A DNA stretch of 64,000 nt, from NCBI GenBank assembly GCA_024280855.1, contig JAJRPG010000046.1, forward strand, positions 1 through 64,000, given 5' to 3'. Source of the stretch: Planctomycetota bacterium (lineage in GTDB: Bacteria > Planctomycetota > Phycisphaerae > UBA1845). The translations under genes and the position numbers were made by a program. The notes under the pieces were generated by a model. It saw nothing but the letters and a program-made list of their open reading frames with translations. It ran no database searches and was not told the origin of the DNA. This document shows positions 5,762-28,434 of this stretch, piece after piece (the first letter of the stretch is position 1; every line of letters begins with the position of its first letter).

Positions 5762-6014
5762 CAGCATCACCTGACTCACTTAGTCGTTCAGGTCCGATCA
5801 AAATTTGCTACACACTTTCTCATGTCTCTGCTTGACCTAAACACAGGGCACAACAGCCAGTAGAGATATTCTTCACACATATTTTCGGACTTCACAAGAG
5901 AAACATCCCATCGGACAGCTTTCCTATCACATTGTATTAGATACTTGCATAGGTGATGTATTCAAGTTGTGTGCCCCGGCGGGTCGGGATGCCGCACTGT
6001 CTTCTTTGCAAGTG

Positions 6015-12557: not shown

Positions 12558-13025
12558 TCAATTGACTATCTGCGTCCACGATCCGGGCACCTCGGTAATC
12601 AAGCCATTCACGTCCTGTAACTTCATTTGAAGTATATATTTCGCATCGCCTTTTAATGCCGTGGCTGTTAACACCACGAAATTGTTGGGGGCTAAGGATA
12701 TGTCGTCGTCTTCAGGATCGGTTACGACCAGCGTGAAGGTTCCGTCACCAATGATTTGATTTGTGACCCACGCGCCGGTCGTAGGTCGATTGGTTCGCCA
12801 AGCCGTATCGCTGCGCATCCAGTAGAAGCCCATTTCGATGGCTGAATGTGCGTAGGCACGGGCTAGCATAAAGTCGCTGCCTGTTTGAATAGCACGCCGC
12901 TCTACGCGCACGGCCATTAGCGCCGCTAAGCCAATGACCATAACCGTTAATGAGCTTCCCATGACCAGGATGTAGACTATGCCTCGCCTGCGCATGGTGG
13001 ATCGTTTTTTTGAATTCATTTTCAT
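12558..13025 (-). CDS. PilX/GspK-like minor pilin
   Basis: Last gene of the pseudopilus cluster. Seen: a basic leader ending RRRG, then a hydrophobic helix (IVYILVMGSSLTVMVIG) and a helix continuing RVERRAIQTGSDFMLARAYAHSAIEMGFYWM. The helix lacks the Glu at position 5 of the mature protein, as in GspK and PilX, which sit at the filament tip. At 155 residues it is shorter than GspK and closer to PilX. Processed by a prepilin peptidase that is not in this window. It follows the GspI/PilV-like gene by 74 bp. Confidence 0.75.
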   Translation of the reverse strand: MKMNSKKRSTMRRRGIVYILVMGSSLTVMVIGLAALMAVRVERRAIQTGSDFMLARAYAHSAIEMGFYWMRSDTAWRTNRPTTGAWVTNQIIGDGTFTLVVTDPEDDDISLAPNNFVVLTATALKGDAKYILQMKLQDVNGLITEVPGSWTQIVN

Positions 13026-13099
13026 TTGAAAGACTTATTATCATCCATCTCTATTGCTATCCATCTCCGCGCACGCTGAAGCATGCGGCTCGAAATTAT

Positions 13100-14278
13100 C
13101 TATGGCGTATCCAATCCTCCGGCCCAGGCAACGGATCGTTGCATGATCGTTTGTCCATTGGCGCTTAGTGAATTGAAATCAAACGCAGATTGCCCCCAGG
13201 GAAGATGTACGCGGCGTCCGGCGGTGATCCCTCCGCCCTGCATAGATGCGCCAGTATTTAAGATTCCAAAACCAGCAAAGGAGGTCGCTCCACCTCCATT
13301 AGAGGTACCACCAAGATATAAGATATCCGTCGATGTGGCCCCGTTAAACACTTGGACAGGCTGACTTGAAGTATATATCGTCATCCATCCCAACACAAAC
13401 GGTGTAGTGATGTAATGTGTGTTGTCCCAGATATTAAGTCTCGTGGTTGAAACTGCAGAATAGCTTAAACTAAATCCAAAGTCATCTAATAAATCTGGAT
13501 TTTCATTGATAATCCCTTTTGACGTAGTTGAGAAATCGGCCCGCATTTGGGCGGGATTTACTTCGGAAGAGATGTAAATAGCTACAACATCTGCTGCTTG
13601 TAGATCCACATCTGATTGAAATTCGGAAACGGAAATCGTGACAACCTCATACCCCCATAACTCCAACAAAGAGATTCGTGCTAGTTCCGTTGTTGTCGCG
13701 GTATTGATAGTCATTCCCTTAGTTAGGTATAAAATTTTAGGTGGCGATGGCGCATCTGGCGGGCCTGGTGTGCGGATGCCTATGAAAGAAGCCATCTCAA
13801 CGGAATTGTAAAATATTGATACCGTAATTCGCTTAACATCAGTGGCCGATACTGATGTCGTAGCTAAGTCGGCTGGTGATACCCAATCAACAAGGACTTT
13901 ACGCGACCAGTTAGCCATGCCTAGCAATGGATCGCCATTCCTTTTTTCCAATGCCACTCGGTTCCAATCGTCGTAATCATCGACGTCGTCAAAACCTAAA
14001 CGATTGGCACTATTTTCAGCTGGTTCCAGACCAAATGTAGGCGTCTGGTCAGGGTCTTCGTAGGGCAAAGCCATGATCTCAGATAACATGGCTTGACCAA
14101 TACCGTGGGCCATGGCCTTTCTGCTGACCTGCGAACGACCTGTGGTTGTTGCACCTACTGTATTAAGGGCTGCGACCATGAGAGTACCAACGATGACAAT
14201 AGAGATCAGGCTTTCGGCTAGGCTAAATCCTTTGCGACGCGATCTAAAATGTCGAAATGTTGCCATAGCTTTACTCAC
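13100..14278 (-). CDS. GspI/PilV-like minor pilin fused to a GATase-like extracellular domain
   Basis: N-terminal class III signal: leader to RRKG, then FSLAESLISIVIVG with Glu5, as in GspI/PilV. The pilin part runs to about residue 180 (RKAMAHGIGQAMLSEIMALP is typical of the family). Residues about 185-392 are extra: KILYLTKGMTINTATTTELA, LLELWGYEVVTIS, ADVVAIYISSEV, LLDDFGFSLS and a final IMQRSVAWAGG. That order resembles the flavodoxin/GATase-like domain found in many secreted proteins (judged by eye). It would be displayed at the filament tip. The gene overlaps the upstream gene by 4 bp. Confidence 0.8.
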   Translation of the reverse strand: MSKAMATFRHFRSRRKGFSLAESLISIVIVGTLMVAALNTVGATTTGRSQVSRKAMAHGIGQAMLSEIMALPYEDPDQTPTFGLEPAENSANRLGFDDVDDYDDWNRVALEKRNGDPLLGMANWSRKVLVDWVSPADLATTSVSATDVKRITVSIFYNSVEMASFIGIRTPGPPDAPSPPKILYLTKGMTINTATTTELARISLLELWGYEVVTISVSEFQSDVDLQAADVVAIYISSEVNPAQMRADFSTTSKGIINENPDLLDDFGFSLSYSAVSTTRLNIWDNTHYITTPFVLGWMTIYTSSQPVQVFNGATSTDILYLGGTSNGGGATSFAGFGILNTGASMQGGGITAGRRVHLPWGQSAFDFNSLSANGQTIMQRSVAWAGGLDTP

Positions 14279-15378
14279 TGAACGGTCACGCTCGGATGGT
14301 TTAGTACGTTTGTAGACGTGGCATGCGTCATGTTCGTGCCACCATCTATTTGAAGCTCGATGGTTACGGTATTCAGTTTGTTTGTAGCTGGTGGAAGTCC
14401 TGCATTGTTATTAATCCTGGCTGTACCGTATACATAAAAGCCAGTCAGGGTAGTCGACAATACTTGTACCCAGGCCCCACCTGCATCGTTTGATGTGAAT
14501 AGCTTCACGTTAGTCCGAGCTACGGAAGGCTGTTGATATAATATCACGCTAGTAACCGGATCTGAACCTATGACTGGCGTTAGCGTGACACAAATCCCCT
14601 GATCTGGATTTAGCCACGGCGAGAGTGTGTAATCGATCGTGGCTGCAGTCCAATTTTTACCTAGCGAGCTTTCCAGGAGTTGCACACTTTCGATGGCCGT
14701 CGTATTAGGTCGACCATTGCCACTATCGTTCCTCAGCTCTACATTGGTGATGCCTTTCTTCTTCCCGGAATTCTTTCCCCGAAATACGACTTGATCGAGC
14801 TTCCATTTTGTCGTATTAGCCGGGAGTATCGCAGGGTCTGGGACGACATACTGCGATAGCCAAGTTGTGTCTGTAATATTATAGGAGAACTCTGTAGCAC
14901 CGGCATCTATATCGATACTCGAAAAAAGCGTAAATGGCCGGTCGGTTGTACCGGCACCGCCACCGGCACCGCCAGCTGCATCTATATCGAAAGCCATTTC
15001 AAATCGATTCACATTTTCCAATACTGTGACCGCAGGCAATAAGTTATATTTTCGTGTTAATGGATCACCCAGTACACCGGACCATTCGTAGCGAATCGTT
15101 TCGGCGACGGCATTAGCATCTCGATCAGCCACGGTGAACTCTATTGCGTTCAGAGAGGCTAGTGTAAAAGACTGAGCCACTGATATTTCGTTGGACATTT
15201 TTTCAAGAATTTTATAACTTGCGATCGATTGAGAAAGCTTGTTCGACGAGCTTGGCAACGCGCGACTTGCTAGCACCATAGAAGAACCAATGCCTAGTAG
15301 TACAAGAGATGCGATGGACATACTCACGACCAGCTCGATCAACGTTACGCCGCGACGAACATGGGTATATTTGTTCAT
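14275..15378 (-). CDS. PilW/GspJ-like minor pilin
   Basis: A 367-residue pilin-like protein. Seen: leader ending VRRG, cleavage before VTLIELVVSMSIASLVLLGIG (Glu5 present), a helix with SKLSQSIASYKILEKMSNEIS, then a long beta-rich region with repeated Thr/Ser/Asn strands (about 90-365). This size and layout fit PilW or GspJ of the tip complex, though the globular part is longer than usual GspJ and its fold cannot be read. It is followed, with a 4-bp overlap, by the GspI/PilV-like gene, implying translational coupling. Confidence 0.8.
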   Translation of the reverse strand: MNKYTHVRRGVTLIELVVSMSIASLVLLGIGSSMVLASRALPSSSNKLSQSIASYKILEKMSNEISVAQSFTLASLNAIEFTVADRDANAVAETIRYEWSGVLGDPLTRKYNLLPAVTVLENVNRFEMAFDIDAAGGAGGGAGTTDRPFTLFSSIDIDAGATEFSYNITDTTWLSQYVVPDPAILPANTTKWKLDQVVFRGKNSGKKKGITNVELRNDSGNGRPNTTAIESVQLLESSLGKNWTAATIDYTLSPWLNPDQGICVTLTPVIGSDPVTSVILYQQPSVARTNVKLFTSNDAGGAWVQVLSTTLTGFYVYGTARINNNAGLPPATNKLNTVTIELQIDGGTNMTHATSTNVLNHPSVTVQ

Positions 15379-15405
15379 GAGTGGTTATCCAATCCTAGTG
15401 TGGTA

Positions 15406-15936
15406 CTAATTCACGACTATGGGTACAGGAATATCTACCTGTAATGGCACTGGAACAGCTACCTGAATTATTTTTGTCCCAATGTTGATTCGAGACGATT
15501 GGTTCCCGATCTGAAGATCGACATAGCCTGAGGTGACTATTTCGCCGTATCCGTCGTAGGTAAGTTTCGCTACGCCCCCAAAATCAGCGGCGATGATTTT
15601 AACTTGGTAAGGTTCCTCCAATAAAGAAACTTTATAGAAATTACCAGGGTGGTCTGGATCTTCAATCGCGTTGATACGATACTCATTCGCTACTAAATCT
15701 ACCCAAACGGTAATCGACGTGCTTGTAGTTCTAGCACGATCGCTTACACGATTCAGGTCGGTGATAACTCTCCTCACGGCTCCGTCTAATCGCTGACGTG
15801 CGGAGGCCTGGGCATATCGAGGGACTGCGACGGCTGATATCGTGCCGATGATAACCAGGACGATGAGCATTTCCGCCATCGAGAAAGCATGCCGTCGTGA
15901 TTCGGCCTTCTGATGATGTGACTGATTCGATTTCAT
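15406..15936 (-). CDS. GspH/FimT-like minor pseudopilin
   Basis: A 176-residue pseudopilin. Seen: leader with SRRHA, cleavage before FSMAEMLIVLVIIGTISAVA (Ala rather than Gly at -1, which prepilin peptidases tolerate), then the GspH/FimT pattern RQRLDGAVRRVITDLNRVSDRARTTS and a beta-sandwich rich region (ITVWVDLVANEYRI, YDGYGEIVTSGYVDLQIG). The helix ends VPRYAQASAR as in type II minor pseudopilins. It lies between the major-type pseudopilins and PilW/GspJ, the usual order in such operons. Confidence 0.82.
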   Translation of the reverse strand: MKSNQSHHQKAESRRHAFSMAEMLIVLVIIGTISAVAVPRYAQASARQRLDGAVRRVITDLNRVSDRARTTSTSITVWVDLVANEYRINAIEDPDHPGNFYKVSLLEEPYQVKIIAADFGGVAKLTYDGYGEIVTSGYVDLQIGNQSSRINIGTKIIQVAVPVPLQVDIPVPIVVN

Positions 15937-15959
15937 ACGCCGTCCAGATCGTGACCGTT

Positions 15960-16544
15960 CTATTTCACCATCATATCAACTTTTTTCGCATCCAAAACGC
16001 CCACTCCGTTTAGCTTTGCCGTGGTTGTTGAGATGTAAAACGCCCCGTCGGCTAACACCGCAACCCAGCCTACCGTTCCTTTGGCGGGGTCCGCGTCGGC
16101 CTTGACTGCCTTGACCTTAACGTCTCTTAAATTGTTAAAGGGATTTGTTGGAAACGGCGGTCTGAGATATGGACCATACAAGTATGTGGATGACCCCAAA
16201 GGGTTCACTGCCCCCGATTCACTGGAGTATTGCATGAGCTGCCGCACAAACATGACGTTGTCGGGCGTTGTGGTTCCCGGCGTATAGCCGGGGTACTTTC
16301 CATGCTCGGCATAGTACACGTCAACGGCTTTGCGCACGTTAGCAAGCGTTGCCATGAGTGCTTCGGCTTTGGCACCTTTAGCAGCAGAAGAGATTCGTGG
16401 GACAGCTACGGCGGAGATCACGCCTATGATGACAACCACGATGACTAACTCCACCAAGCTAAACGCTCGATGATGAGCCTGGCGCCAAACAAGTCGCTTG
16501 GCCTGACCACTCACTGAACAGGTTTTCCGTGCTAAGGCGTTCAT
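15960..16544 (-). CDS. Major-type pseudopilin (GspG/PilA-like) 2
   Basis: The second of two neighbouring GspG-like subunits. Start at 16544 (MNALARK) gives a leader to HHRA, then FSLVELVIVVVIIGVISAVA, Glu5 present and Ala at -1. The helix is followed by ALMATLANVRKAVDVYYAEHGKYPG, the classical GspG start, then YGPYLRPPFPTNPF. A longer open frame reaches 16610 but adds an unlikely leader. The last 40 residues carry a small strand pair (GWVAVLADGAFYIS). It probably assembles into the filament with, or instead of, the other major-type subunit. Confidence 0.85.
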   Translation of the reverse strand: MNALARKTCSVSGQAKRLVWRQAHHRAFSLVELVIVVVIIGVISAVAVPRISSAAKGAKAEALMATLANVRKAVDVYYAEHGKYPGYTPGTTTPDNVMFVRQLMQYSSESGAVNPLGSSTYLYGPYLRPPFPTNPFNNLRDVKVKAVKADADPAKGTVGWVAVLADGAFYISTTTAKLNGVGVLDAKKVDMMVK

Positions 16545-16658
16545 GACAATTGCATGTTCCCCAAAAGGATGGCCGCTTGGTCGCCATGAAAGGCAATACC
16601 TCGCGGCCAATTGGACTTATCGCCCTTAATTGATTTATCCTGCCAACCGACCGGACAA

Positions 16659-17150
16659 CTAGTAACTACTGTAAGTGACTGAATTGTCGTCTGATAGCAA
16701 AGAGTTAATTACAATGGACCCCTTATCGGTGCTATAAATCCAACCTTCACCAGTAGCTACGGAAGCGGCGTCTGGCGCGGGAACGCCCGTCGTTATAATA
16801 ATTGTCGCATTACCCTTGTTTTCACCAACCGAAGCTGGCGGAAAACCAGAACGCAGGTACGGTCCATAATCAGTACCCGCTGCACCAGCAAAATCAGTTG
16901 TCTCGACCAATTTCAGTTCGATCGCTGCCTGGTTGGCACCAGCCGGGAACACGCCGCCATGCTCAGCGGCATACATGTCGATGGCATTACGCAAACCGGC
17001 CAAGCTGGCACGTAGCGCTGCGTCACCCGCCCCCTTTGCACCACGACTGATTCTTGGTACTGCCACTGCGGCGATAACGCCAATGATGACGACCACGATT
17101 ACCAATTCGACCAAACTAAAGCCGCCAACCTTCTTTGTATTTTTCATCAT
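16659..17150 (-). CDS. Major-type pseudopilin (GspG/PilA-like) 1
   Basis: Short leader MMKNTKKVGG, then FSLVELVIVVVIIGVIAAVA with Glu5, and VPRISRGAKGAGDAALRASL, nearly identical in plan to its neighbour. RNAIDMYAAEHGGVFPAG matches GspG, and YGPYLRSGFPPASVGENKG occurs in both subunits. The start at 17150 follows GCAGGCGAGAAA, a plausible Shine-Dalgarno; an open frame reaches 17177. Being first of the pilin genes and having the stronger upstream gap (151 bp), it is the likelier main filament subunit. Confidence 0.87.
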   Translation of the reverse strand: MMKNTKKVGGFSLVELVIVVVIIGVIAAVAVPRISRGAKGAGDAALRASLAGLRNAIDMYAAEHGGVFPAGANQAAIELKLVETTDFAGAAGTDYGPYLRSGFPPASVGENKGNATIIITTGVPAPDAASVATGEGWIYSTDKGSIVINSLLSDDNSVTYSSY

Positions 17151-17301
17151 TATTTTCTCGCCTGCAGAAAGTTCCACTCGTCCACTATTTTTTTTATAAG
17201 GAAAACCATTTTCTAACCGTTGCCATTTCCCTCTTACAGTCTACGAAACAAGACTGCCCCCGACTACCCCAACCATCTATCGTCTGCTCATAAGCACAGG
17301 T

Positions 17302-17847
17302 TTAATCTTGCAATAAAGTTGAAACGCTTATCACACTTAGTGTCGCGATCCCGTCACTGCATTCAAAACGTGCGATATTATCTGTTAATTTACTTAACTT
17401 ACAGCCGTCTAAAGATTGCCCTAGTTGCACCCAGCTTCCATTGATGATGGCTACATGAAATTTCGGACTAAGCATGACCGCGTCGAGCGTATATGTAGAT
17501 TCAAACGTCAGATAATCATTTTTTCCGAGAGTTTTTTGCGTGAGATTATTTATATCAGACGCTTCATCATCTTGCTCAGACGCCGATGATCGATGCCTAA
17601 GCGTTGGCGGCATGAAAAAATCTACAAACTCGCTAGGCCCCAATGCCTCCACGAGCTGGGGGAATGGCAACTCTGGAATTGAATCGATAGCAGCGACTGC
17701 GGATGAATCATCAGGCAAGATGGCTGAGGGGGCAGGGGCGGCGATGGCTACCTCGGGCGCGTACCCGACTGCCACGCGGTCGATAATCAAGGCTATCACG
17801 CCACATGCTAATATGGCGATGTAGAGACGCTTTTTTTGTGGCGTCAT
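17302..17847 (-). CDS. GspC/PilP-like periplasmic protein
   Basis: Unrecognised at family level by name, but the plan fits GspC/PilP: one N-terminal membrane helix (about 8-26, IAILACGVIALIIDRVAVG), a Pro/Ala/acidic linker (30-120), and a small C-terminal beta domain (VAIINGSWVQLGQSLDGCKL ... IARFECSDGIATLSV), the HR-type fold that contacts a secretin in known systems. The two Cys (KLxxC pattern, FEC) may form a disulfide. It overlaps the PilO-like gene by 4 bp, matching the PilM-N-O-P order. The partner secretin is not in the window. Confidence 0.6.
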   Translation of the reverse strand: MTPQKKRLYIAILACGVIALIIDRVAVGYAPEVAIAAPAPSAILPDDSSAVAAIDSIPELPFPQLVEALGPSEFVDFFMPPTLRHRSSASEQDDEASDINNLTQKTLGKNDYLTFESTYTLDAVMLSPKFHVAIINGSWVQLGQSLDGCKLSKLTDNIARFECSDGIATLSVISVSTLLQD

Positions 17848-18440
17848 GATGAGCCGTCCTTTGGCTGGCCTGCGTCCGAAGCCTGCGCCGAAAACATGCT
17901 GATCGTAAATTTCGCATTTCGCTTGAGCGAAGATGTCTCACCGCCTTGGGCCAATGAGAAAAAACCAACATCCGCCCAATAAGCACTCTTCTCAATGGAT
18001 TCAAAAAACGCTAAAATCGCCTGCAAAGATCCCGATATTTCAAATTGCGAGCGCTCTTCCACCAAGCCAGGATATTGAGCTGCGACCATTGGCACTTGGC
18101 TTTGAATCGTAACGCCTGCCTCCGCAGCCAGCGTCGTCAGGTTCTCGAAATAATCATCAGACGGGAACTGATTGGGCAGCGTGCCTCGTTCAACTAAATC
18201 TACGGTTTGCTGCTGAATCTCAGATTGCTGCGCTGTATTAGATACTTGCAATGTCGCCAATGTCTGTCGAGCGCGGCCTAATTCGTCCCTCATGCCTACC
18301 ATTTCCTGGCCAGAGCGATCGAAGTACGTGACTAAAAGCCACAGCGCAACACATGATAATGTCGCAACTATGGCACCGCAGATTAAGTCCACACCCCAAA
18401 TCGACCAGCGCACATTGTTAGATAATTTTACCATGCGCAA
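17844..18440 (-). CDS. pilO: PilO/GspM-like inner membrane assembly protein
   Basis: A 198-residue bitopic membrane protein: helix about 14-38 (GVDLICGAIVATLSCVALWLL), coiled coil about 40-85 rich in Gln (TLATLQVSNTAQQSEIQQQ), then a ferredoxin-like domain (DDYFENLTTLAAEAGVTIQS, FEISGSLQAILAFFESIEKS, AKFTISMFSA). This is the PilO plan; PilO pairs with PilN to link the cytoplasmic PilM ring to the outer-membrane channel. It overlaps PilN by 13 bp and the GspC/PilP-like gene by 4 bp. Confidence 0.78.
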   Translation of the reverse strand: MRMVKLSNNVRWSIWGVDLICGAIVATLSCVALWLLVTYFDRSGQEMVGMRDELGRARQTLATLQVSNTAQQSEIQQQTVDLVERGTLPNQFPSDDYFENLTTLAAEAGVTIQSQVPMVAAQYPGLVEERSQFEISGSLQAILAFFESIEKSAYWADVGFFSLAQGGETSSLKRNAKFTISMFSAQASDAGQPKDGSS

Positions 18441-19048
18441 ATCACCTCAAATCGAAAATAGGAACCGTCGAGTACATCTTGACGACGCGAATGGGTTAAG
18501 GTGACGGATTTAAATATACCAGAAGTTTTTAATCGTCGAACCAAATCATGTGGTTCACCAGCGCCAGCGGTGTAACCTAACAACCGTAGCTTTCTAGCTG
18601 CGTCAATGGTCACTACTTCATCGCACTTTATGGCATTGCCTGCTTGTATTGATGCTGACTGCGTGCGACGAACTTTGGATGGCGACGTAGGGTCCGTGCT
18701 AATAGAGGTTAGCCAAGCTGACTTGGGTAGACATTGCGTCACCACCGCGATAATTTTTGTCCACGCCCGCTTACCCCGCAGCGAATCAGCTCGTTCCATT
18801 TGATCCCGAAGCTGCACACTCTTCGCCTTCGCCTCTTTAAGCTTCTGTTGAAACGTTTTAACCTGGGCCAAAAACTGATCTGTTTGCGACTGAACATCAC
18901 TCGCTTCTACGCGCTGACTAAACGTTAGCCACAACATCATCAATACGCACATAAGCGCAACAGCCATGGGCGCTAACCATCGCTGTAAATGACGTCGGCG
19001 CTGCTGCCGAGTCATAATATATTCTGGAATTAAGTTAATACGAGCCAT
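18428..19048 (-). CDS. pilN: PilN-like inner membrane assembly protein
   Basis: Start at 19048 is chosen because it yields MARINLIPEYI, the conserved N-terminal INLxP motif by which PilN docks onto PilM. Then one membrane helix (about 29-48), a Lys/Gln coiled coil (55-95) and a C-terminal ferredoxin-like domain (LRLLGYTAGAGEPHDLVRRL, RFEVICAW). The linker with KSAWLTSISTDPTSP resembles GspL/PilN. It starts 4 bp after the PilM stop and overlaps PilO by 13 bp. A longer frame to 19066 would lack INLIP at the end. Confidence 0.82.
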   Translation of the reverse strand: MARINLIPEYIMTRQQRRRHLQRWLAPMAVALMCVLMMLWLTFSQRVEASDVQSQTDQFLAQVKTFQQKLKEAKAKSVQLRDQMERADSLRGKRAWTKIIAVVTQCLPKSAWLTSISTDPTSPSKVRRTQSASIQAGNAIKCDEVVTIDAARKLRLLGYTAGAGEPHDLVRRLKTSGIFKSVTLTHSRRQDVLDGSYFRFEVICAW

Positions 19049-19052
19049 GTGC

Positions 19053-20141
19053 TCACTCATCCTCAATCGCTAAACCAATAGCCAAGCCAAACATCTCCAA
19101 GGGCAGGTTTTTTCCACTGCTAAAATTAATCCGACAGTCGGTAGCCTCTAAATAATCACTGGCAGACCGCACTTCGATGCCCAATCCTTGGGCGAAGTAT
19201 TCTGAAACACCTCGCACACATGCTCCTCGCCCTACCAAAACTAAATCGTCAGCTTGGCGTTTTGGAAAACTGCTCAATACATATTCGTAAGACCGACTAA
19301 TCTCTGAAGTCAAATCATGAAGTAGCCGGCGTAAATAGCCGCCAAGCATTTCTGAAAGCTCATTTCCAGATGTTTCTCCGGCGATGGTTTTTCCACGATT
19401 CGACAGAGATACGCCATGATCGAATAACTGAATACGCGCCGTAGACTCACTAACTTTTAACGCCGTTGAGATGGCACTTATCCACTCACCCACTCCCGTG
19501 CCTACACGACGGACGAGAACAGGCACATGATCCACATATATAATTAGCCGAGCTTGTCGCTGCCCAACATCTAAAACACCCCAAACGGAAGACGCAGGCC
19601 AAGGCTTGAGCTTACCCACGAAGCGACCTAACGCGGTCGGCGCAACATCCACGCACTGGCAATTGAACCCCGCTTGTTCGCATGCATCCAGCGCCTGCTC
19701 GATATACAGCGTGGGTGCTGCAACACTCATGACATTAGGAACTGGCGCAGGCGTATCTGGCAACATCCAATAATTTATTTCCATCTGATCTGTAGCATTA
19801 TTCGCCATGCGCAGCGCCTCATTCTTGATGGCTTCATGCATCTCATCGACTTGCTGCTTTTTCATGTCGAGTGCGTGAAACTCCACTTCCGGGCTGCTGA
19901 GACCAAAAACGATCTTCTTCCCGCGAAATCCGGCGCTAGACAATAAGCGTTTAAGCGATGAAGATTCCACCTCTGGCTTCTCGCCCTGTTCATCAGCGCT
20001 AGGCCTGTCGGACTGTACGACGCTTACGACTTCTGCCATGCCACGGCGATTGATCACTTGTGCGGCGCGAATCGCGCTATCACCAAAGTCCAGGCCAATG
20101 GCACTGACGCGGGAAACTTTTTTTGTAGCCAGTTTCAACAT
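19053..20141 (-). CDS. pilM: PilM-like actin-fold assembly protein
   Basis: Cytoplasmic ATP-binding protein that forms a ring under the PilN/PilO complex. Seen: phosphate-1 motif AIGLDFGDSAIRAAQV (about 15-30), the long middle region with helices around DEMHEAIKNEALR, VWGVLDVGQRQARLIIY (second actin-fold strand set, about 190), and near the C-terminus DDLVLVGRGACVRGVSEYFAQGLGIEV, the adenosine-type motif. Length 362 is normal for PilM (about 350). It precedes PilN by 4 bp. Confidence 0.88.
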   Translation of the reverse strand: MLKLATKKVSRVSAIGLDFGDSAIRAAQVINRRGMAEVVSVVQSDRPSADEQGEKPEVESSSLKRLLSSAGFRGKKIVFGLSSPEVEFHALDMKKQQVDEMHEAIKNEALRMANNATDQMEINYWMLPDTPAPVPNVMSVAAPTLYIEQALDACEQAGFNCQCVDVAPTALGRFVGKLKPWPASSVWGVLDVGQRQARLIIYVDHVPVLVRRVGTGVGEWISAISTALKVSESTARIQLFDHGVSLSNRGKTIAGETSGNELSEMLGGYLRRLLHDLTSEISRSYEYVLSSFPKRQADDLVLVGRGACVRGVSEYFAQGLGIEVRSASDYLEATDCRINFSSGKNLPLEMFGLAIGLAIEDE

Positions 20142-20165
20142 AATCGATACTCGACACCCTGATAG

Positions 20166-21341
20166 TTACATAGCTGATGTCATGTCAAACATTGGAATAA
20201 ATAAGGACAAACAAACGGCACCAACGACCACACCCATACCGAGTAAAATGATAGGCTCGATCAATCGTGCGACGACGTCCACCGCCTCAGTATTTGACTC
20301 ATCCAGCATGTCTGCCGCGAAAAGTAAAGCGCCATCTATATTTCCACATTCTTCACCCGTGCGCACGGCTTGACATAAATAAGGTTCCACTATCCCAGAA
20401 GCCTCCAAGGCATAACTGATCGACCCACCGGAAGTTACGGAATCTTCTAAGTCCTTAAACATTTTCTGAAATGCGCTATTCGATGTTGCCCCTCTAATCA
20501 GCGCGATGGAATCAAGTAGGCCCACCTTACTTTGAAGTAGTAGCCCTAACGTTCGGAATACGCTGCCTTGAATAAGCTTGGAACGTAACTTTCCTACTAT
20601 GGGAATGGATAGCTGAAAATCGGCCAACCATTGTCGGCCCTTTTTTGAAATGACAACCCAGGCTATTCCCGCGCCACAAGCAAGTATACAGCCGAGTAAA
20701 ATGGCCCAATGCTCGCTTATGAACTTGCCAGATGACAACATGAATTGCGTACTGGCTGGAATTTCAACGTCTAGTTGCACAAACATGTCTGCAAAGCGCG
20801 GCATCACAAATAGCATTAAGCCGAGAATAATATGTATACACATGAATATGAGCAATATCGGATAAGCCATCGCCCCGCCTATCTTATTTCTCATCGCACG
20901 CTGTTTACCCACAATAGCGGCTAATCGTTCAAACATTTGCGGTAACATCGCCCCGGCTTCGCCTGCGGCTACGATGGCACAAAAAACTGAATCAAACGTT
21001 CTGGGATGTTTCTTAAACGATTCTGTTAGAGATACCCCTTCTTCCAAATCTTCCGCGACATTATTGAGCAAATCTTTCTGCGCTGGCTTGCTCATTTGCT
21101 TAGCGATGGATTGTATCGCAGGAACCAGACCACTACCTGACCGAAGGAGCATAGACATTTGTCGTGTGAACAAAGCCAGTACCTTGATAGACAGTCGTTC
21201 TTCTTTCGCAGGCTTTAATGACGCAGGTTTTTTTTCGTTAATGCTAGCGACTCGTTTAGCCTCGCGCTTTGTAGACGCGCGATCGGCACGCGTTTTCGCT
21301 GCGTGGTCCTGAGCCTGTATCCCTCGAGTCGCGCCGATCAT
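20166..21341 (-). CDS. Inner membrane platform protein GspF/PilC
   Basis: Polytopic platform protein of type II secretion / type IV pili that couples the ATPase to filament growth. Seen: two T2SSF repeats, first at about 60-175 (FTRQMSMLLRSGSGLVPAIQSI; CAIVAAGEAGAMLPQMFERL), second at about 260-385 (FRTLGLLLQSKVGLLDSIALI; CQAVRTGEECGNIDGALLF), with membrane segments near 155-180, 208-230 and 360-385. The first 50 residues are Lys/Ala-rich and variable. It follows the ATPase gene with a 4-bp overlap. Confidence 0.93.
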   Translation of the reverse strand: MIGATRGIQAQDHAAKTRADRASTKREAKRVASINEKKPASLKPAKEERLSIKVLALFTRQMSMLLRSGSGLVPAIQSIAKQMSKPAQKDLLNNVAEDLEEGVSLTESFKKHPRTFDSVFCAIVAAGEAGAMLPQMFERLAAIVGKQRAMRNKIGGAMAYPILLIFMCIHIILGLMLFVMPRFADMFVQLDVEIPASTQFMLSSGKFISEHWAILLGCILACGAGIAWVVISKKGRQWLADFQLSIPIVGKLRSKLIQGSVFRTLGLLLQSKVGLLDSIALIRGATSNSAFQKMFKDLEDSVTSGGSISYALEASGIVEPYLCQAVRTGEECGNIDGALLFAADMLDESNTEAVDVVARLIEPIILLGMGVVVGAVCLSLFIPMFDMTSAM

Positions 21342-23098
21342 GTTAGATTCTCCATACCTGCGCCACTAGGATCGCCACATTCCATCGCTTCAGAACGCGA
21401 TACGCGAACTACTTCTTCAAGCGTGGACTTACCAGCTTCAACCAAATCCAAAGCTTTCTCTCGCAGCGTCCGCCATCCTGTTTGCTTGAGATACATACGC
21501 ACGTCCTGCTCCGATGCCTCTTCCTGTACCAACCGCTTGAGTTCAGTGTCCATCACCATGACTTCATAAATACCAACTCGCCCACGAAAGCCGCTGTTAT
21601 TACATTCACGGCAGCCTTCTCCCTTTTGGAAAACTTCGTTGGTGCGATGCTCCCAGCCAACCTTTCTAAGCAAGGACTCTGGCGGGTAATATGACGTGCG
21701 ACATGATGGGCATATTTTTCTCGCAAGCCGCTGAGCCACGAAACCCAATAGCGATGAGCTAATCAGGAACGGCTCTACGCCCATATCAAGCAAACGCATG
21801 ATCGCACCCGGGCAGTCATTGGTATGCAGCGTTGATAACACGAGGTGGCCAGTCAGTGCCGCCTGGATGGCGATGCGCGCAGTCTCCTGGTCTCGAATCT
21901 CTCCCACCATAACCACGTCAGGGTCTTGCCGAAGTATTGATCGAAGCGCACGCACGAAAGTTAGCCCCACCTGTTCATTAACCTGTATCTGATTAATGAG
22001 GGGTAATTGATATTCAACGGGATCCTCAATCGTCGTGATATTCGTAGCTTCGTTACGCAATAAATCCAGTGCAGAATAAAGTGTCGTCGTCTTGCCACTT
22101 CCCGTCGGGCCTGTCACCAGCATCAGGCCATAAGGACTACGAATCATGGATTCAACAGCGATGCGATCCTGGCCAACAATACCTAAGTCTTCCAGATTAA
22201 AGCTCAATTGAGACTTATCTAAAATTCGCAGTACAATTTTTTCACCAAGCACCGTGGGCATGGACGATACGCGCAGATCGATCTCTCGACCGTCAGCCAT
22301 GATATGCACGCGGCCCTCTTGCGGAAGCCTTTTTTCCGCGATATCCATACGACCAATGACTTTCACACGCGATACGACTGAAGCGTGCATGCCTTTGGGA
22401 GGGCGAAGAATTTCGCGCAATTGGCCATCCACCCGAGCGCGAATATGCGTGGCGTCACGATCAGGTTCAATATGAATATCACTCGCACCCGCTCGAAGCG
22501 CGGTAAGAATAGCCAAGTTCACAAGATTGACGACCGGACTACCATCGATCATCTTATCGAGGTCCGTCACTGGCCCTTCATCTATCGCCTCATGTTCCGA
22601 AATCTGGATATCGCTTTCATCCATTGACGCGAGGAACGAATCGACGTTGACTTCTTCAGCTAAATACTTCTTTTGATACTCCTGCAAATTCTCTTCGATC
22701 ACCAATACCGCGCGAATTTGGCAACCAGTCAAATTTCGTATGCGGTCTAGCGTGGGCAGCGACTGCGGATCGACCATAGCGACGGTCAAATCATCTTTGA
22801 CACGAAACAATGGGAGTACGCGCATACGTTCAGCTTCTTCTCGTGGCAAGAGCTTCGCAATGGCAGGATCAATCAAGCCATGCCTCAAGACGCACCCTTT
22901 TACTTGTAATCGTTTTGATAAGGCATCGACAAGTGCCCCAGCCGTTAGCGAACCCTCGTCAACCAGCAACTGGCCAATACGTCCGCCGCTTTCTTCCTGG
23001 CGAGATAGCGCATCCGTAAGCTGTTCCTCGTTGATGATTCCATCACGAACCAACTGCTCGCCTAATCGAACCGCAGAAGATGTTTTAATCGTAGCCAT
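21338..23098 (-). CDS. Secretion/assembly ATPase GspE/PilB
   Basis: Hexameric cytoplasmic ATPase that powers pilus or pseudopilus growth. Seen, in a 586-residue protein: N-terminal MshEN domain with RLGEQLV...GGRIGQLLVDEG (about 11-50), a second MshEN-like unit to about 145, Walker A GPTGSGKT (330-337), Asp box IEDPVEY (357-363), Walker B VVMVGEIRD (395-403), His box LSTLHTND (421-428), and a zinc motif formed by C463-x2-C466 and C496-x2-C499. The MshEN domain binds cyclic-di-GMP in characterised members, which fits the HD-GYP and GGDEF genes upstream. Confidence 0.94.
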   Translation of the reverse strand: MATIKTSSAVRLGEQLVRDGIINEEQLTDALSRQEESGGRIGQLLVDEGSLTAGALVDALSKRLQVKGCVLRHGLIDPAIAKLLPREEAERMRVLPLFRVKDDLTVAMVDPQSLPTLDRIRNLTGCQIRAVLVIEENLQEYQKKYLAEEVNVDSFLASMDESDIQISEHEAIDEGPVTDLDKMIDGSPVVNLVNLAILTALRAGASDIHIEPDRDATHIRARVDGQLREILRPPKGMHASVVSRVKVIGRMDIAEKRLPQEGRVHIMADGREIDLRVSSMPTVLGEKIVLRILDKSQLSFNLEDLGIVGQDRIAVESMIRSPYGLMLVTGPTGSGKTTTLYSALDLLRNEATNITTIEDPVEYQLPLINQIQVNEQVGLTFVRALRSILRQDPDVVMVGEIRDQETARIAIQAALTGHLVLSTLHTNDCPGAIMRLLDMGVEPFLISSSLLGFVAQRLARKICPSCRTSYYPPESLLRKVGWEHRTNEVFQKGEGCRECNNSGFRGRVGIYEVMVMDTELKRLVQEEASEQDVRMYLKQTGWRTLREKALDLVEAGKSTLEEVVRVSRSEAMECGDPSGAGMENLT

Positions 23099-23138
23099 GC
23101 GTAATACAATCGATAAGTAAATCTATGCGGATCGGAAA

Positions 23139-23474
23139 CTACAAATAGCTTTTCACCGCATCTTCAACTTCGTTAAACAAACGAAAATGGGACGTTGTCC
23201 CAGTTAATTCCAACACTTCGCGACAGATTTGTGGCACTTGCGCGAGCTTCAATTCTTCGGCGCGTTCGGCCAACTCTTCACTAACCAGAACAAGCGTTTC
23301 GAGTGCAACGCTGTCCAGATAAGGCACATGCTGCAAAGACACGACAACGTGAGGATTCGTTACATGAAGTTTTTCGCGTAGAATGCTACCAAAATGGTGG
23401 GCATCGTCATCGACGAGAGGCCCTATAGGCGCAATGACATCTACGGACCCCATCTTCACCGAATCGATCTTCAT
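23139..23474 (-). CDS. STAS-domain protein (anti-sigma factor antagonist type)
   Basis: A 111-residue single STAS domain: beta strand MGSVDVIAPIGPLVDDDA, strand PHVVVSLQHVPYLDSVALE with a Ser in the usual phospho-acceptor site (DSVAL), then helix LVLVSEELAERAEELK and strand KLAQVPQICREVLE. Known proteins of this type switch partner proteins by Ser phosphorylation. No PP2C phosphatase or anti-sigma kinase is next to it; the partner is unknown. The start overlaps the end of the GGDEF gene by 4 bp and the ATPase gene follows 40 bp on. Confidence 0.85.
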   Translation of the reverse strand: MKIDSVKMGSVDVIAPIGPLVDDDAHHFGSILREKLHVTNPHVVVSLQHVPYLDSVALETLVLVSEELAERAEELKLAQVPQICREVLELTGTTSHFRLFNEVEDAVKSYL

Positions 23475-24802
23475 AAAGCAGCCTCCGTGGCTATATTGAC
23501 CTCATCAGGTCTCGTCACCAACGATACGCCATCAATTCTTGCTGATCGCCATGTCGATAAAGCACTGGAGAGTAAAGTACGCACATCTGTTTGATCTGGT
23601 CCGGCAGTGACGACGCCGCATCGTATACCAACCTCTCCGCCCCATCGCTGACTATTTCCAACCACTTCTTCGAGGCGTGCGACCAATTGGGTAGCGACCA
23701 ACGTCGTCAGCTCGGCATCTACTCGTCGTAAGAACACAACGATACGAGACTCGTCGAATCGGCCGATACAATCGTCGGTGCGTATCTTTTTTCGGACGAC
23801 ATCGCTAGCGGCCCGAACGATTTCATCTACAACTTCCCATCGCCCCGAATCCGACAATTGACGCAGTCTCTCTAAAGCAACAATAACCATGGCCACTGGC
23901 TCATTGTTATCATTCGACTGCTTTAGCGCTCGTTGAGCGGATTGAATAAACGCCTCTCTTGTAAGCAATCCTGACACGGGGTCGGTTTGACCTAGTTTCG
24001 CGCCTACAGCCGCATCGTAAACTGTATTCCAAAATTGACCTATCAATCGCTCAACGCAGGTAAGCATTTTTTCCTGTTGAGAATGGGATGCATCTATCGT
24101 TCCCACTTCAATCACGCCAATGCATGCCCCGCTTCGAATGACCGGGAAGCACCAGGTTGCGCCCCGTGATTGAGCATCCTGGTCTCGCACCGCATAGTCA
24201 GAACTAGCAGAACTCGGTTTCAGGTAACGAGACTTACTTCGCATTATTTGTGCAGGAAGCCCCACAGTCGATGACACAACGGGAACATCATCCCAGACCT
24301 CCGGCACACGCAAAGGCACTAAACCTGTCGCATCGTCAATGGTTCGGTAAGGACGTATGTGTGTGGCATGGCACAATCTAGCCAATACCGATCGTACATA
24401 TTCGTCAAAGTCATCCCAAATATCACTTCGCTCTCGATGGTCATCAAGCCATGTATCAAAGCGAAACAATTCTTCGCCCAATAAAGACCATGAAGAATGA
24501 TCCTCTAGCTGAGGCGTGACATTTCGATTTTCAACTTCCTTCGTCATTCTCGTTTTCACAGGCGATTCATAGCTACTCGACCATTTACCCATTACGACGA
24601 TTACAACGGCTCCCCCCAAAAGCGCAACCAACGTACTTGCATTCATCTTGGCTAAGGAACCCACTGAACCTTGTACCAACATGAACCAAAACAATGCGCA
24701 CAACACTCCCAACCAATGGCCGCGCCGATGCTCAAGCAGGCGACCGCCAAGTCCGGCGACCAGGACTACAGGGAACCAGGTAAGAATTAGCAAGGTCATC
24801 AT
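23471..24802 (-). CDS. Membrane protein with GAF-like and degenerate GGDEF domains
   Basis: A 443-residue protein: two to three membrane helices in residues 1-75, a GAF-like sensor (about 130-270, TWCFPVIRSGACIGVIEVG) and a GGDEF domain (about 285-435, DPVSGLLTREAF). The active site is lost: where RYGGDEF is expected the sequence reads GRFDESRIVVFL. It is therefore unlikely to make cyclic-di-GMP and may act as a ligand- or protein-binding relay. It is placed between the HD-GYP gene (4-bp overlap) and the STAS gene (4-bp overlap). Confidence 0.87.
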   Translation of the reverse strand: MMTLLILTWFPVVLVAGLGGRLLEHRRGHWLGVLCALFWFMLVQGSVGSLAKMNASTLVALLGGAVVIVVMGKWSSSYESPVKTRMTKEVENRNVTPQLEDHSSWSLLGEELFRFDTWLDDHRERSDIWDDFDEYVRSVLARLCHATHIRPYRTIDDATGLVPLRVPEVWDDVPVVSSTVGLPAQIMRSKSRYLKPSSASSDYAVRDQDAQSRGATWCFPVIRSGACIGVIEVGTIDASHSQQEKMLTCVERLIGQFWNTVYDAAVGAKLGQTDPVSGLLTREAFIQSAQRALKQSNDNNEPVAMVIVALERLRQLSDSGRWEVVDEIVRAASDVVRKKIRTDDCIGRFDESRIVVFLRRVDAELTTLVATQLVARLEEVVGNSQRWGGEVGIRCGVVTAGPDQTDVRTLLSSALSTWRSARIDGVSLVTRPDEVNIATEAAL

Positions 24803-26112
24803 GCTGGCATAATCCCGATTGAGTTACAAATTGAATCCGTTTCCTGCAAGAAATTTTCGGAATCTTTCAACAACGTCTTCCAAGCGTTCTCGTCATGACT
24901 AAGAAGGTTTTTCATCATCGTAATGAATGTCGCTGTTAAAGTAGGGTCGCACGTCTCACCGGCTTCGTTGTCAAGAATATCCAGCGCCTCCTTCCAGGAA
25001 TATGCGCCTCGATATGAACGGTTAGATGTAAGCGCATCAAAAATATCTGCAATCTGAATAAGCCTAGCCTGCAGTGGAATACCCTCACCCTTAAGGCCGG
25101 CAGGATAACCTTTGCCATTGAATTTTTCGTGATGGTGCAATACCCCCGGTAGCGCACCGGCCAACTTGGGAATTTCTTTAACAACTTGATAACTGCGCGT
25201 GGGATGCTCTTTCATGTGGGTAAACTCTTCGTCTGTGAGCTTACCCTCTTTCTTGAGAACCTCATCTCGAATGCCAATTTTTCCAACGTCGTGCAGCAAC
25301 GCACTCCATTGAAGCATCTGAAGATCGTGACCAGTCAAGCCGATGCGTTGCCCCAACAACATGGAGAAAAATCCTACGCGGACAGAATGGCCAGAGGTGT
25401 ATTCGTCTTTTTGGTCAACCGCATTAACCAGCGCACGCACCATAGATAACGATATGCCGCGTAATTCCAATACGAGTCTATGATTTCGAATCACATCTCC
25501 ACAATAATTACACAGCGCCTCCACCATGGTCATATCGCAAGCTCGAAACTGCGATTCCTTTTCGCTTCGAGAGACGACGATGACGCAAACAAATTCATCA
25601 CCAGCCATCACCGGACCTACCAAAATTTGCACTGTACCGTTATTAAATTCGCCGGTTGGTGCATGCTCCACAAGTACACGCATTTCCTTAGCGGCGCGAT
25701 CTACAGTCTTATCGATCCAATCTGAATACGTTTTTTCACCACCAAGAATTTCGTCAAACTCGCAAGCCTGACTTGCTCCCGTATATACGTCACAACCAAC
25801 ATAACTCCGTTGCAATCCATCGATAAATACATCCAACACCTGCGATTCATCACACGCAATTGACAACCGCCGCGTGACTTCGAACACTACGCCAAGAAGT
25901 TCGTAAGCTGCAAGCAGTTCCTCGCCCATGCCCAAGTGCTCATCAAGCACCTTTTGCAGCATTTTCTGCACAACACTAAAAGCCGATTCGCAATCAAACG
26001 GTGCAACGCCATTGGCTACAGTTGCTTTCAGTAGCGTCAATGCCTCTTGTGCGTCCTTGGGCTTTTGGCAAGTCGCAGAGATATTTTCCTGGTGGCCGCT
26101 CAATCCGCACAC
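24799..26112 (-). CDS. GAF/HD-GYP cyclic-di-GMP phosphodiesterase
   Basis: A 437-residue cytoplasmic protein: a leading helical region, a GAF-like domain (about 70-210) and an HD-GYP domain (about 225-420). Seen: ALLHDVGKIG with H274/D275, EHPTRSYQVV, HHHEKFNGKGYPAGL (326-340) and IADIFDALTSNRSYR, so the metal and GYP residues are intact. Expected reaction: hydrolysis of cyclic-di-GMP to pGpG/GMP. It overlaps the receiver gene by 13 bp and the GGDEF gene by 4 bp, so it probably acts with the kinase and receiver upstream. Confidence 0.92.
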   Translation of the reverse strand: MCGLSGHQENISATCQKPKDAQEALTLLKATVANGVAPFDCESAFSVVQKMLQKVLDEHLGMGEELLAAYELLGVVFEVTRRLSIACDESQVLDVFIDGLQRSYVGCDVYTGASQACEFDEILGGEKTYSDWIDKTVDRAAKEMRVLVEHAPTGEFNNGTVQILVGPVMAGDEFVCVIVVSRSEKESQFRACDMTMVEALCNYCGDVIRNHRLVLELRGISLSMVRALVNAVDQKDEYTSGHSVRVGFFSMLLGQRIGLTGHDLQMLQWSALLHDVGKIGIRDEVLKKEGKLTDEEFTHMKEHPTRSYQVVKEIPKLAGALPGVLHHHEKFNGKGYPAGLKGEGIPLQARLIQIADIFDALTSNRSYRGAYSWKEALDILDNEAGETCDPTLTATFITMMKNLLSHDENAWKTLLKDSENFLQETDSICNSIGIMPA

Positions 26113-26495
26113 TCCGTTCCAGCCGGAGCTGGATGATTTTCTAATAATCGCGAGATGTCATCGACCAGCCGTGACGGCGTAAACGGTTTAGCGCGAAGAT
26201 TGACATCCAAACCGGCTGACTGCTGTAACAGCTCTGTTTGATCGCATCGCGCAGAAAGTAAAATGATGGGCATCGACATCTTTAATTCGTCTCGAACTGC
26301 GTGAACAAGTTGCAAGCCATCCATCTCAGGCATGTTCATGTCAGTGATGAGCAGATCAACTGGATTCTCACGCAAAAAAGCCAATGCCAATGCGCCATTG
26401 GCCGCATCATTAACATCATGACCATGACGCTCAAGCCACATGTGCATAATCCGTATGATGTGCGGTTCATCTTCTGCTAATAATATATAAGCCAT
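26100..26495 (-). CDS. Response regulator, single receiver domain
   Basis: A 131-residue CheY-like stand-alone receiver. Seen: acidic pair AEDEPH near residue 8, phospho-acceptor Asp in LLITDMNMPEMDG (about 52), ILLSAR with the conserved Ser/Thr position, and the Lys in RAKPFTPSRLV. No DNA-binding or enzymatic output follows, so the output is likely the HD-GYP protein encoded by the next gene, which overlaps by 13 bp. The gene starts one base after the kinase gene ends, so the pair is a two-component system. Confidence 0.93.
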   Translation of the reverse strand: MAYILLAEDEPHIIRIMHMWLERHGHDVNDAANGALALAFLRENPVDLLITDMNMPEMDGLQLVHAVRDELKMSMPIILLSARCDQTELLQQSAGLDVNLRAKPFTPSRLVDDISRLLENHPAPAGTECAD

Positions 26496-26496
26496 G

Positions 26497-28434
26497 TTAT
26501 GATTCCTTCGTTACTGTCATAGCCGTGGCACGACTTACCTGGTGCGGTAATTTCACCATAAACGTAGACCCGTTACCTTTTTCGCTCATCACCGAGATTT
26601 CCCCGCCGTGTCTTCGCACCATTTCACGAGCGGTATACAAGCCAACGCCCGTTCCGGTAATGTTCCGAACTTCCGGATCATCCACGCGCTGAAATTTCTC
26701 GAAAATTCGTGCGTGATCTTTAGCGTCAATCCCCATACCGTTATCCTTCACGGTAATCATGACGCAGTCCTCAGTCTGCTGACATGCAACAATCACCACG
26801 CCATCTGCCGGGGTATATTTTATCGCGTTCCCCAAGAGGTTATTAAGCACCACGGCTAGCTTGTCTCGGTCCGCGTTGATGTTTTCCATTTTCGCGGGAA
26901 CCACGACTTGAAGATCAATGTGCTTCTCATCTGCAAGTCCGCGAATATCTCGCACGCTATCACTGACTAAAGTTTTGACATCCACATCGTTCATAGATAA
27001 CGCAATCGAACCAACTTCCAGTTGCGAAACGTTAAGAATGTCTTCAATCAATCGTGATAATCGACGTGTCTCTTTTGTGATTACGTTATAACATTCGGTA
27101 ATAACCTTGGGATCATCAAACATACCGCTGGAGAGTGTTTCCGCATATGCACGGATATTGGTCAATGGAGTTCGCAATTCATGCGTGACCTGGGTGACAA
27201 AATCTTCGCGCGCTCGGTCTGTTCGCAATTGTTGGCTTACATCACGAATGGTAATCACACAGCCGTTACCAGCCGCAGATTTACGCATGGGCTGTATAGA
27301 CACGCGATAAGAGCTGGCATCTTCGTCTTCCGGCGCTCCGTCTTTGACGTTTTCGCTACACGATCGATATGTTCCATCAGCCGTTTGAGACGATATCGCC
27401 AGTTCACGGACTTTGTCGCCGATCCCGGACAACTTCTGCCCTTGCAATGAATGATCGTCTTGCTCGTCCCACGAAATCCCCAACAGACGCTGCGCGTTCG
27501 CATTGATATATTGAATTCGATCTACATCTGAAATGTAAATGATACCATCCGACACCGAATTAAGCGCATCCGCAAGCGCCCCCCCGTGAGAACGTTTTAG
27601 CACGCCGGCTAATTCGTCGTTGGCTTTATTTTTGTCCGCTGCACTCGCGCAAGATTGCGCCAAATCGATTAACTCATTCCAGGCGTTTGTAATGACATCT
27701 GTCGCATCATGAAATCGAAGCGTACCCAAGTTTTTTTCCATGCGCGAATAGTTGCTGTGTAGCCGATCACCTATCCGGGCGACACTTCGCATCTGAACAC
27801 GAAGCCTTCGGTAAATAACAAAAAGCACGCCCAACACCACAAGCACAACGATCACAGTATCTGCATGAGTTGAGAGCATGGTAGCCGAATGCTCGAAAGG
27901 TAGTAGATGTATATCCAGCAGTAAATCTGACGATTCACTTTCGTCCTCAATTTTCGCTCCAGCACGCGACACATATATCGGCGCACGAATGATAGAGACA
28001 GGCACTCCCAACGCTCCATTAGTTACAGACATGAGGGACATAGCCTTAGGCCAGCTTACGTCAGACGTATCATCAACAAATATTTGCCCCAGCTCATTTT
28101 CATTTATCGATGCGATAATCATTCGATCACGATCGATCAAGCGTAAAGTGTCTACCGACATATGAGAAGAAAATTCATATAAGGCGTGTTGCCGAGATAG
28201 CTGACGCATACTCTCGGAACCGTCAATGGCACTTAATTGAGACACCAAAGCCGTCACCGCATAACGATATGATGACTCATACTCCTGGGCGGCTAGTTCC
28301 CTGGTTTTGGAAATCCCCAAGTAGGATACTGCTCCCAGCCCGAACAGGTAACTGATGACCAGCGATAGTCCGAACCATCGCGGCACTTCCTCTGCGTTTA
28401 AGAACGCTCTAATTGTATTCAGTCCTGCGCGCAA
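26497..28434 (-). CDS. Membrane sensor histidine kinase with PAS domain
   Basis: First gene of the cluster. 645 residues: membrane helix about 20-41, an extracytoplasmic sensor region 42-190, a second helix about 192-210, a linker, a PAS domain (about 285-405, NSVSDGIIYISDVDRIQYIN), HisKA with H418 in VTHELRTP, and HATPase_c (NLLGNAIKY N-box, DNGMGI, GTGVGLYTAREMV). The start is TTG at 28434, preceded by AGGAG eight bases upstream. Its phosphate target is probably the receiver next to it. The signal sensed is unknown. Confidence 0.93.
   Translation of the reverse strand: MRAGLNTIRAFLNAEEVPRWFGLSLVISYLFGLGAVSYLGISKTRELAAQEYESSYRYAVTALVSQLSAIDGSESMRQLSRQHALYEFSSHMSVDTLRLIDRDRMIIASINENELGQIFVDDTSDVSWPKAMSLMSVTNGALGVPVSIIRAPIYVSRAGAKIEDESESSDLLLDIHLLPFEHSATMLSTHADTVIVVLVVLGVLFVIYRRLRVQMRSVARIGDRLHSNYSRMEKNLGTLRFHDATDVITNAWNELIDLAQSCASAADKNKANDELAGVLKRSHGGALADALNSVSDGIIYISDVDRIQYINANAQRLLGISWDEQDDHSLQGQKLSGIGDKVRELAISSQTADGTYRSCSENVKDGAPEDEDASSYRVSIQPMRKSAAGNGCVITIRDVSQQLRTDRAREDFVTQVTHELRTPLTNIRAYAETLSSGMFDDPKVITECYNVITKETRRLSRLIEDILNVSQLEVGSIALSMNDVDVKTLVSDSVRDIRGLADEKHIDLQVVVPAKMENINADRDKLAVVLNNLLGNAIKYTPADGVVIVACQQTEDCVMITVKDNGMGIDAKDHARIFEKFQRVDDPEVRNITGTGVGLYTAREMVRRHGGEISVMSEKGNGSTFMVKLPHQVSRATAMTVTKES

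Follow-up and report, generated by a model that had tools for sequence, protein, structure and literature searches.

A conserved signalling module precedes a type IV pilus-like machine in Planctomycetota and may be coupled to its assembly ATPase through a STAS protein

We describe a 17-gene cluster that encodes a type IV pilus-like machine together with a probable control module of its own, in which a single-domain STAS protein would couple the module to the assembly ATPase PilB. We give this reading a probability of roughly one half. It is very likely that the signalling block serves this motor as a dedicated control module, given the conservation of gene order described below. Control of PilB by cyclic di-GMP (c-di-GMP) is known in a few bacteria, where it acts through PilZ/FimX or MshEN. 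The arrangement suggests a conserved, under-described module through which pilus assembly would be turned on and off.

The stretch analysed (the window) comprises positions 1 to 64,000 of contig JAJRPG010000046.1 (C70) of a Phycisphaerae-type Planctomycetota MAG (4.56 Mb in 112 contigs). Near relatives of the host are JAJDDW010000103.1 (OFTM182) and JAJRWX010000087.1. The cluster is read on the minus strand from 28434 to 12558 and contains, in order, the following genes (Pfam evidence is given in brackets where a match was obtained):

26497..28434, minus strand: sensor histidine kinase (HK) with two TM segments and a variable extracytoplasmic part (Pfam: PAS, HisKA, HATPase_c)
26100..26495, minus strand: stand-alone receiver (REC) without output domain (Pfam)
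24799..26112, minus strand: HD-GYP phosphodiesterase with a weakly GAF-like N-terminus (Pfam)
23471..24802, minus strand: membrane-anchored degenerate GGDEF protein (dGGDEF), with D-E-S-R-I in place of GGDEF and an I-site R341-T-D-D344 (Pfam, residue table, alignment, TM segments)
23139..23474, minus strand: single-domain STAS protein with a D54-S55 motif (Pfam; PDB relatives TM1442 and SpoIIAA)
21338..23098, minus strand: PilB/GspE-type assembly ATPase with MshEN at its N-terminus (Pfam T2SSE and MshEN; NCBIfam TIGR02538 best but under cut-off; NF053729, residues 11-62, above cut-off)
20166..21341, minus strand: PilC/GspF platform protein (Pfam T2SSF)
19053..20141, minus strand: PilM (Pfam PilM_2)
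18428..19066, minus strand: PilN (Pfam)
17844..18440, minus strand: PilO-like protein (position, synteny, profile, one TM segment)
17302..17847, minus strand: PilP/GspC-like protein with a C-terminal HR-like domain (synteny, profile, one TM segment)
16659..17177, minus strand: type IV pilin 1, GspG/PilA-like (N_methyl; TIGR01710 weak); the real start is probably a few codons downstream
15960..16610, minus strand: type IV pilin 2 (N_methyl); the real start is probably near 16544
15406..15936, minus strand: GspH-like minor pilin (N_methyl)
14275..15378, minus strand: GspJ-like minor pilin with a large central insert (N_methyl)
13100..14278, minus strand: GspI-like minor pilin with a C-terminal extension of about 220 aa (N_methyl)
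12558..13025, minus strand: GspK/PilX-like minor pilin, assigned from sequence and position; its hydrophobic N-terminus lacks Glu5 and it has no family match

All of these open reading frames agree with the sequence-only reading that preceded this work, as do the domain calls. Its description of five signalling genes placed before a PilB-PilC-PilM-N-O machine with six pilins is matched by the domain searches, N_methyl being found in five of the six pilins and the sixth being recognized by sequence only. The Pfam search gave no match for the PilO-like and PilP-like proteins. Overlaps occur in both halves of the cluster: REC/HD-GYP (13 bp), HD-GYP/GGDEF and GGDEF/STAS (4 bp each) among the signalling genes and PilB/PilC (4 bp), PilM/N (14 bp), N/O (13 bp), O/P (4 bp) and GspJ/GspI (4 bp) in the machine. 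Gaps separate HK from REC (1 bp), STAS from PilB (40 bp), PilC from PilM (24 bp) and PilP from the first pilin (124 bp). A scan for promoters and terminators inside the block gave no signal above shuffled expectation.

To follow the gene order in relatives, we compared 40 loci (L080-L119), one from each of 40 genomes in the host's order, with orthologous PilB defined by an identity of 55% or more. Most genomes of the host's family have such a PilB, as do several further families within the order. In all 40 loci the signalling block lies immediately 5' of pilB and STAS is the gene adjoining pilB on its upstream side, while the 4 bp dGGDEF-STAS overlap recurs in most. Departures from the full order HK-REC-HD-GYP-dGGDEF-STAS-PilB-PilC-PilM-N-O-P-pilins are few: the three genomes of family f102 lack HD-GYP, L101 lacks REC, and L102 and L110 lack dGGDEF. 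In one further genome (G393, L093) dGGDEF is gone, with about 190 bp of non-coding DNA in its place, and most of the minor pilin block has been lost as well. Clearly, the gene order is not an accident of the host genome but is conserved at the level of genus, family and order, which supports the earlier proposal that a single signalling block is dedicated to a single pilus machine. The refuting condition attached to that proposal, absence of the order from relatives, does not hold.

Outside the host's order the arrangement loosens and its core remains. Loci from the other orders within the class (L188-L207) usually share the core HK-STAS-PilB-PilC-PilM-N-O-P, with HD-GYP and REC often neighbouring or divergent. 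The GGDEF gene is missing in many orders and an adjacent HD-GYP in some (L188-L201), which means that not every lineage needs the full circuit. The partial rearrangement, with HD-GYP and REC divergent in L198-L205, could be taken to mean that signalling genes and machine share a locus merely for co-expression, with no direct molecular link. We consider this improbable since the STAS-PilB adjacency is retained despite machine duplication, genome shuffling and class-level divergence. In other orders STAS immediately precedes pilB at each of the 19 readable loci (those whose contig reaches far enough), and the same is true of each of the 11 loci of a paralogous PilB cluster. This paralogous cluster reads PilM-N-O-P-secretin ... 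STAS-PilB-(PilT)-PilC in family f1 (L168-L175). In family f108 (L185-L187) an HK-REC-HD-GYP-STAS cassette precedes the paralogous PilB-PilC, indicating that the cassette travels with the motor and not with one locus.

The link extends to the phylum. When 343 genomes were searched with a STAS profile, the best 30 loci were all directly upstream of pilB, in a sample biased to the top ranks. Twenty larger regions taken from the same ranking showed the STAS-pilB link in families f32, f46, f69, f73, f82 and f18, which belong to other classes of Planctomycetota, and weakly in f27; lower-scoring, different STAS families among these regions had no pilB link. Family f46 carries a complete HK-REC-HD-GYP-GGDEF-STAS-PilB series. 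STAS-PilB is thus the deepest link of the arrangement. The combination had been called unusual; this holds relative to well-studied bacteria, but within Planctomycetota the arrangement is normal.

The STAS protein retains Ser55 in 68 of 68 sequences and Asp54 in 67 of 68. Its PDB relatives are of the SpoIIAA type, and it has the STAS fold with a phosphorylatable-type Ser after Asp that is expected of SpoIIAA/RsbV; a linked Ser kinase/anti-sigma factor and a PP2C phosphatase are absent from the cluster. These features could indicate an ordinary anti-sigma antagonist, the cassette then controlling transcription of the pilus genes via an RsbW-type kinase and a sigma factor. The genome does encode eight PP2C phosphatases and one clear RsbW-type kinase, but the latter lies on another contig next to a different STAS, no RsbW-type kinase was noticed in the related clusters, and the constant neighbour of STAS is a motor gene. 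We therefore regard this explanation as quite improbable. As the sole clear RsbW-type kinase is paired with another STAS, either it is shared or Ser55 has another role. Elsewhere in the genome (C30) a PP2C gene lies directly before a PilB-like gene.

Whether STAS is the motor-proximal element of the module is, in our estimate, evenly balanced. A more specific proposal, that STAS is a phylum-wide clutch whose Ser phosphorylation state decides PilB engagement, with the dGGDEF c-di-GMP receptor and the histidine kinase as inputs, is speculative and on balance unlikely. Type IV filaments are known to be controlled by c-di-GMP and two-component systems, and STAS would be a new element within that scheme: the papers searched include no account of a pilus motor acted on by a STAS protein and no paper combining STAS domain, type IV pili and GGDEF; PilB with STAS domain returned only an unrelated proteomics paper, and a PilB review is silent on STAS. 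There are related precedents for such proteins in other settings. In the HsbR-HsbA-HsbD system of P. aeruginosa a STAS-type antagonist, HsbA, binds the GGDEF protein HsbD through Ser56 in a manner dependent on its phospho-Ser state, although the targets there are flagellar sigma regulation and an active cyclase (PMC5085249). In the Nostoc Hmp partner switch the STAS protein HmpV is the output, with an undefined target, of a system controlling hormogonium development and motility; unlike the present cluster, this is Rsb-like partner switching with its own partners (hmpU-W), and the excerpted account reports no pilB linkage (PMC6495340).

A different route to the motor was suggested by the sequence-only reading, in which the cascade could act directly through PilB MshEN. 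In its strict form HD-GYP would tune local c-di-GMP, MshEN would bind it and gate the ATPase, and the other genes would only feed this route. There is a precedent in MshE, a motor ATPase with the same twin 24-residue motif, where the motif Gln contacts c-di-GMP (PMC5013675). In our PilB motif I is intact (RLGxxL..G..L..L..Q, with the 5-aa spacer), Arg40, Gly42, Leu45, Leu56 and Leu60 of motif II are kept in the family, and the NF053729 c-di-GMP motif model scores 56.2 against a cut-off of 38 bits. Unlike MshE, however, the last Gln of motif II is replaced by Arg in this PilB and by Arg or Lys in 22/22 family members; the residue is mixed across the order. The GSPII-A domain of Thermus PilF, with Arg in the Gln place and two more changes, is non-binding, and binding needed the Gln to be restored with two other residues (PMC12002112). 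In addition, PilB in other orders, like that in the paralogous cluster, mostly lacks both Arg40 and Gln while STAS is kept, so that MshEN binding is not the constant part. A c-di-GMP route through this domain is possible, but as the main route it is unlikely.

With STAS as the coupling element, the genes in front of it would form its input, and their residues are consistent with this. Key residues are invariant in HK (His418, 61/61 including the window) and in REC (D9 and K103 in all orthologues; E10 shows the usual acidic-site variation), and HD-GYP has intact HD, HHE, GYP and metal-site residues in 47/47. Nine other canonical GGDEF proteins in the genome indicate that c-di-GMP can be made. 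The dGGDEF itself is, from its residues, catalytically dead: the catalytic Glu is Arg in 34 of 38 sequences, and the signature reads D-(G/E)-S-R-F within the family and (S/A)-D-D-R-F elsewhere in the order, neither being that of an active cyclase. Its I-site is retained (R341 in 35/38, D344 in 37/38), giving an RxxD in a dead GGDEF as in PelD; R394 is kept in at least 90%. We lean slightly towards c-di-GMP binding at the I-site, although a structural role could also account for the conserved R and D.

Comparison between lineages adds to this picture. In family f102, where HD-GYP is lost in 3/3 genomes, the I-site Arg is lost in L100 and L101 and the whole dGGDEF in L102; HK, STAS and PilB stay. 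These joint losses would fit a single c-di-GMP arm made up of HD-GYP and the I-site, but f102 represents one clade, and a single event may account for them. In other classes the same slot is occupied by a TM protein with GGEEF that looks active in five of six cases (f27 has GGATF), and only one of these six carries the I-site Arg. This may be a case of a receptor filling a cyclase slot; a GGDEF tree had long branches and did not show descent of dGGDEF from the same-slot intact cyclases. A phylum search with dGGDEF alone returned only generic GGDEFs, as the domain diverges too fast, and an AF2 model from two sequences reached a pLDDT of 40, too low to be usable.

We infer the protein-protein and ligand steps of the circuit as follows. 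The membrane HK would sense an envelope signal and phosphorylate REC, which would set the activity of HD-GYP, and HD-GYP would lower c-di-GMP beside the machine. The membrane-anchored dGGDEF would read c-di-GMP via its I-site and control STAS, or be controlled by it. STAS, whose conserved Ser may be phosphorylated, would act on PilB as an adaptor or clutch. The whole circuit as drawn is tentative, and we put it below even odds.

Its logic would be that of the Xanthomonas PdeK-PdeR-FimX-PilZ-PilB pathway, realized with other components and with STAS taking the role of adaptor. Both have a kinase, a receiver-driven c-di-GMP phosphodiesterase, a degenerate GGDEF receptor, a small adaptor and PilB. 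In Xanthomonas, however, the phosphodiesterase is an EAL fused to REC, the GGDEF-EAL receptor binds through its EAL, the adaptor is PilZ and the pathway is not described as a single operon with the machine (PMC11656802). FimX of P. aeruginosa, likewise a degenerate GGDEF protein, binds PilB and thereby promotes assembly (PMC5595344). It is also the best PDB match of the dGGDEF profile, but barely above ordinary cyclases, so we do not claim membership; our protein has no EAL. PelD shares a degenerate GGDEF with RxxD after TM segments (PMC7112168). It has a GAF domain, which is only presumed in dGGDEF, belongs to an exopolysaccharide (Pel) operon and has a third Arg that is not clearly equivalent; the PDB profile search with dGGDEF gave no PelD match.

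The arrangement concerns a whole phylum with little-studied pili, in which the motor is tied to one constant partner, STAS, with exchangeable two-component and c-di-GMP genes in front. The reading proposed here would provide a candidate target class for STAS outputs with no known effector and, if the clutch proposal is true, suggest what HmpV-like outputs act on. The STAS-PilB, STAS-dGGDEF and REC-HD-GYP contacts are directly testable.

The nature of the machine bears on what is being controlled. The cluster has an assembly ATPase, a PilC/GspF protein and class III pilins, and the genome supplies a secretin and prepilin peptidase, as expected of a type IV filament. Secretin, prepilin peptidase and retraction ATPase had been noted as absent, which is true within the window. 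PilT-type ATPases are encoded on C57, C44 and C82; none is in this cluster, which thus lacks the PilT expected with a retractile type IVa pilus machine. This, together with GspH/I/J/K-like minor pilins, a PilC best identified as GspF and a PilB score near that of GspE, could point to a type II secretion system, with the cassette gating secretion. PilM, PilN, PilO and PilP are separate, however, PilB is identified best (though under cut-off) as a type IV-A PilB, and the STAS-carrying paralogous cluster has a PilT-type ATPase in several genomes. We hold secretion to be the unlikely option and retain a pilus-like machine.

A genome search located both remaining parts on other contigs. Prepilin peptidase gave three matches: a Tad-type over cut-off (C55) and the two halves of a 505-aa protein (C60), each just under the Pfam cut-off. 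Four secretin loci were found (C26, C55 (Tad), C78 and C7). The C78 secretin and its orthologues form one secretin family in a tree. They adjoin the window-type cluster in the sister families f104, f105 and f106, ruling out a machine that lacks a secretin. In f108 and some of f1 they also lie next to the paralogous cluster, which rules out a secretin belonging only to this cluster; elsewhere in f1 they stand alone. Of the four secretins, that on C78 is the likeliest to serve this machine, perhaps as a shared component.

In five loci from other classes of Planctomycetota (L267, L269, L270, L274 and L282), the gene preceding STAS-PilB encodes a transmembrane (TM)-GGEEF cyclase that is predicted to be intact. 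These cyclases usually lack the I-site arginine.

The GspI-like minor pilin of the cluster carries additional residues, which possibly form a tip domain:

Window 13100-14278, minus strand: GspI-like minor pilin with about 220 additional residues at the C-terminus

Its length is similar in two of the fetched loci (L085 and L092); in many relatives the protein is far shorter. Another of the fetched loci, L093 (genome G393, same genus), no longer has the gene for the dead GGDEF protein. Its minor pilin block is largely gone as well, with remnants of GspH and GspK remaining:

L093 7430-7626 and about 14600-15500, reverse strand: dead GGDEF and minor pilin losses

These losses may reflect either decay or an assembly error.

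Approximately 4.5 kb past the cluster end lies a further gene:

Window 5967-8084, plus strand: protein of 705 amino acids with HD-GYP, PilZ and HEAT domains

From its domain content, the product is a predicted second c-di-GMP phosphodiesterase, fused to a receptor domain.

Two loci lie on other contigs of the host genome:

L122 5651-9009 (contig C30): gene for an FHA-like and PP2C phosphatase protein, followed directly by a PilB-like gene, which is split by a stop codon

L124 8970-17999 (contig C26): two neighbouring proteins of about 1,500 residues each, the first with many repeated N-domains and then a C-terminal secretin domain

DNA uptake is a candidate job for the pilus machine. The 64-kb window includes, together with the pilus cluster, the following gene:

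Window 44106-46832, plus strand: ComEC-type DNA uptake channel with Competence, DUF4131 and Lactamase_B domains
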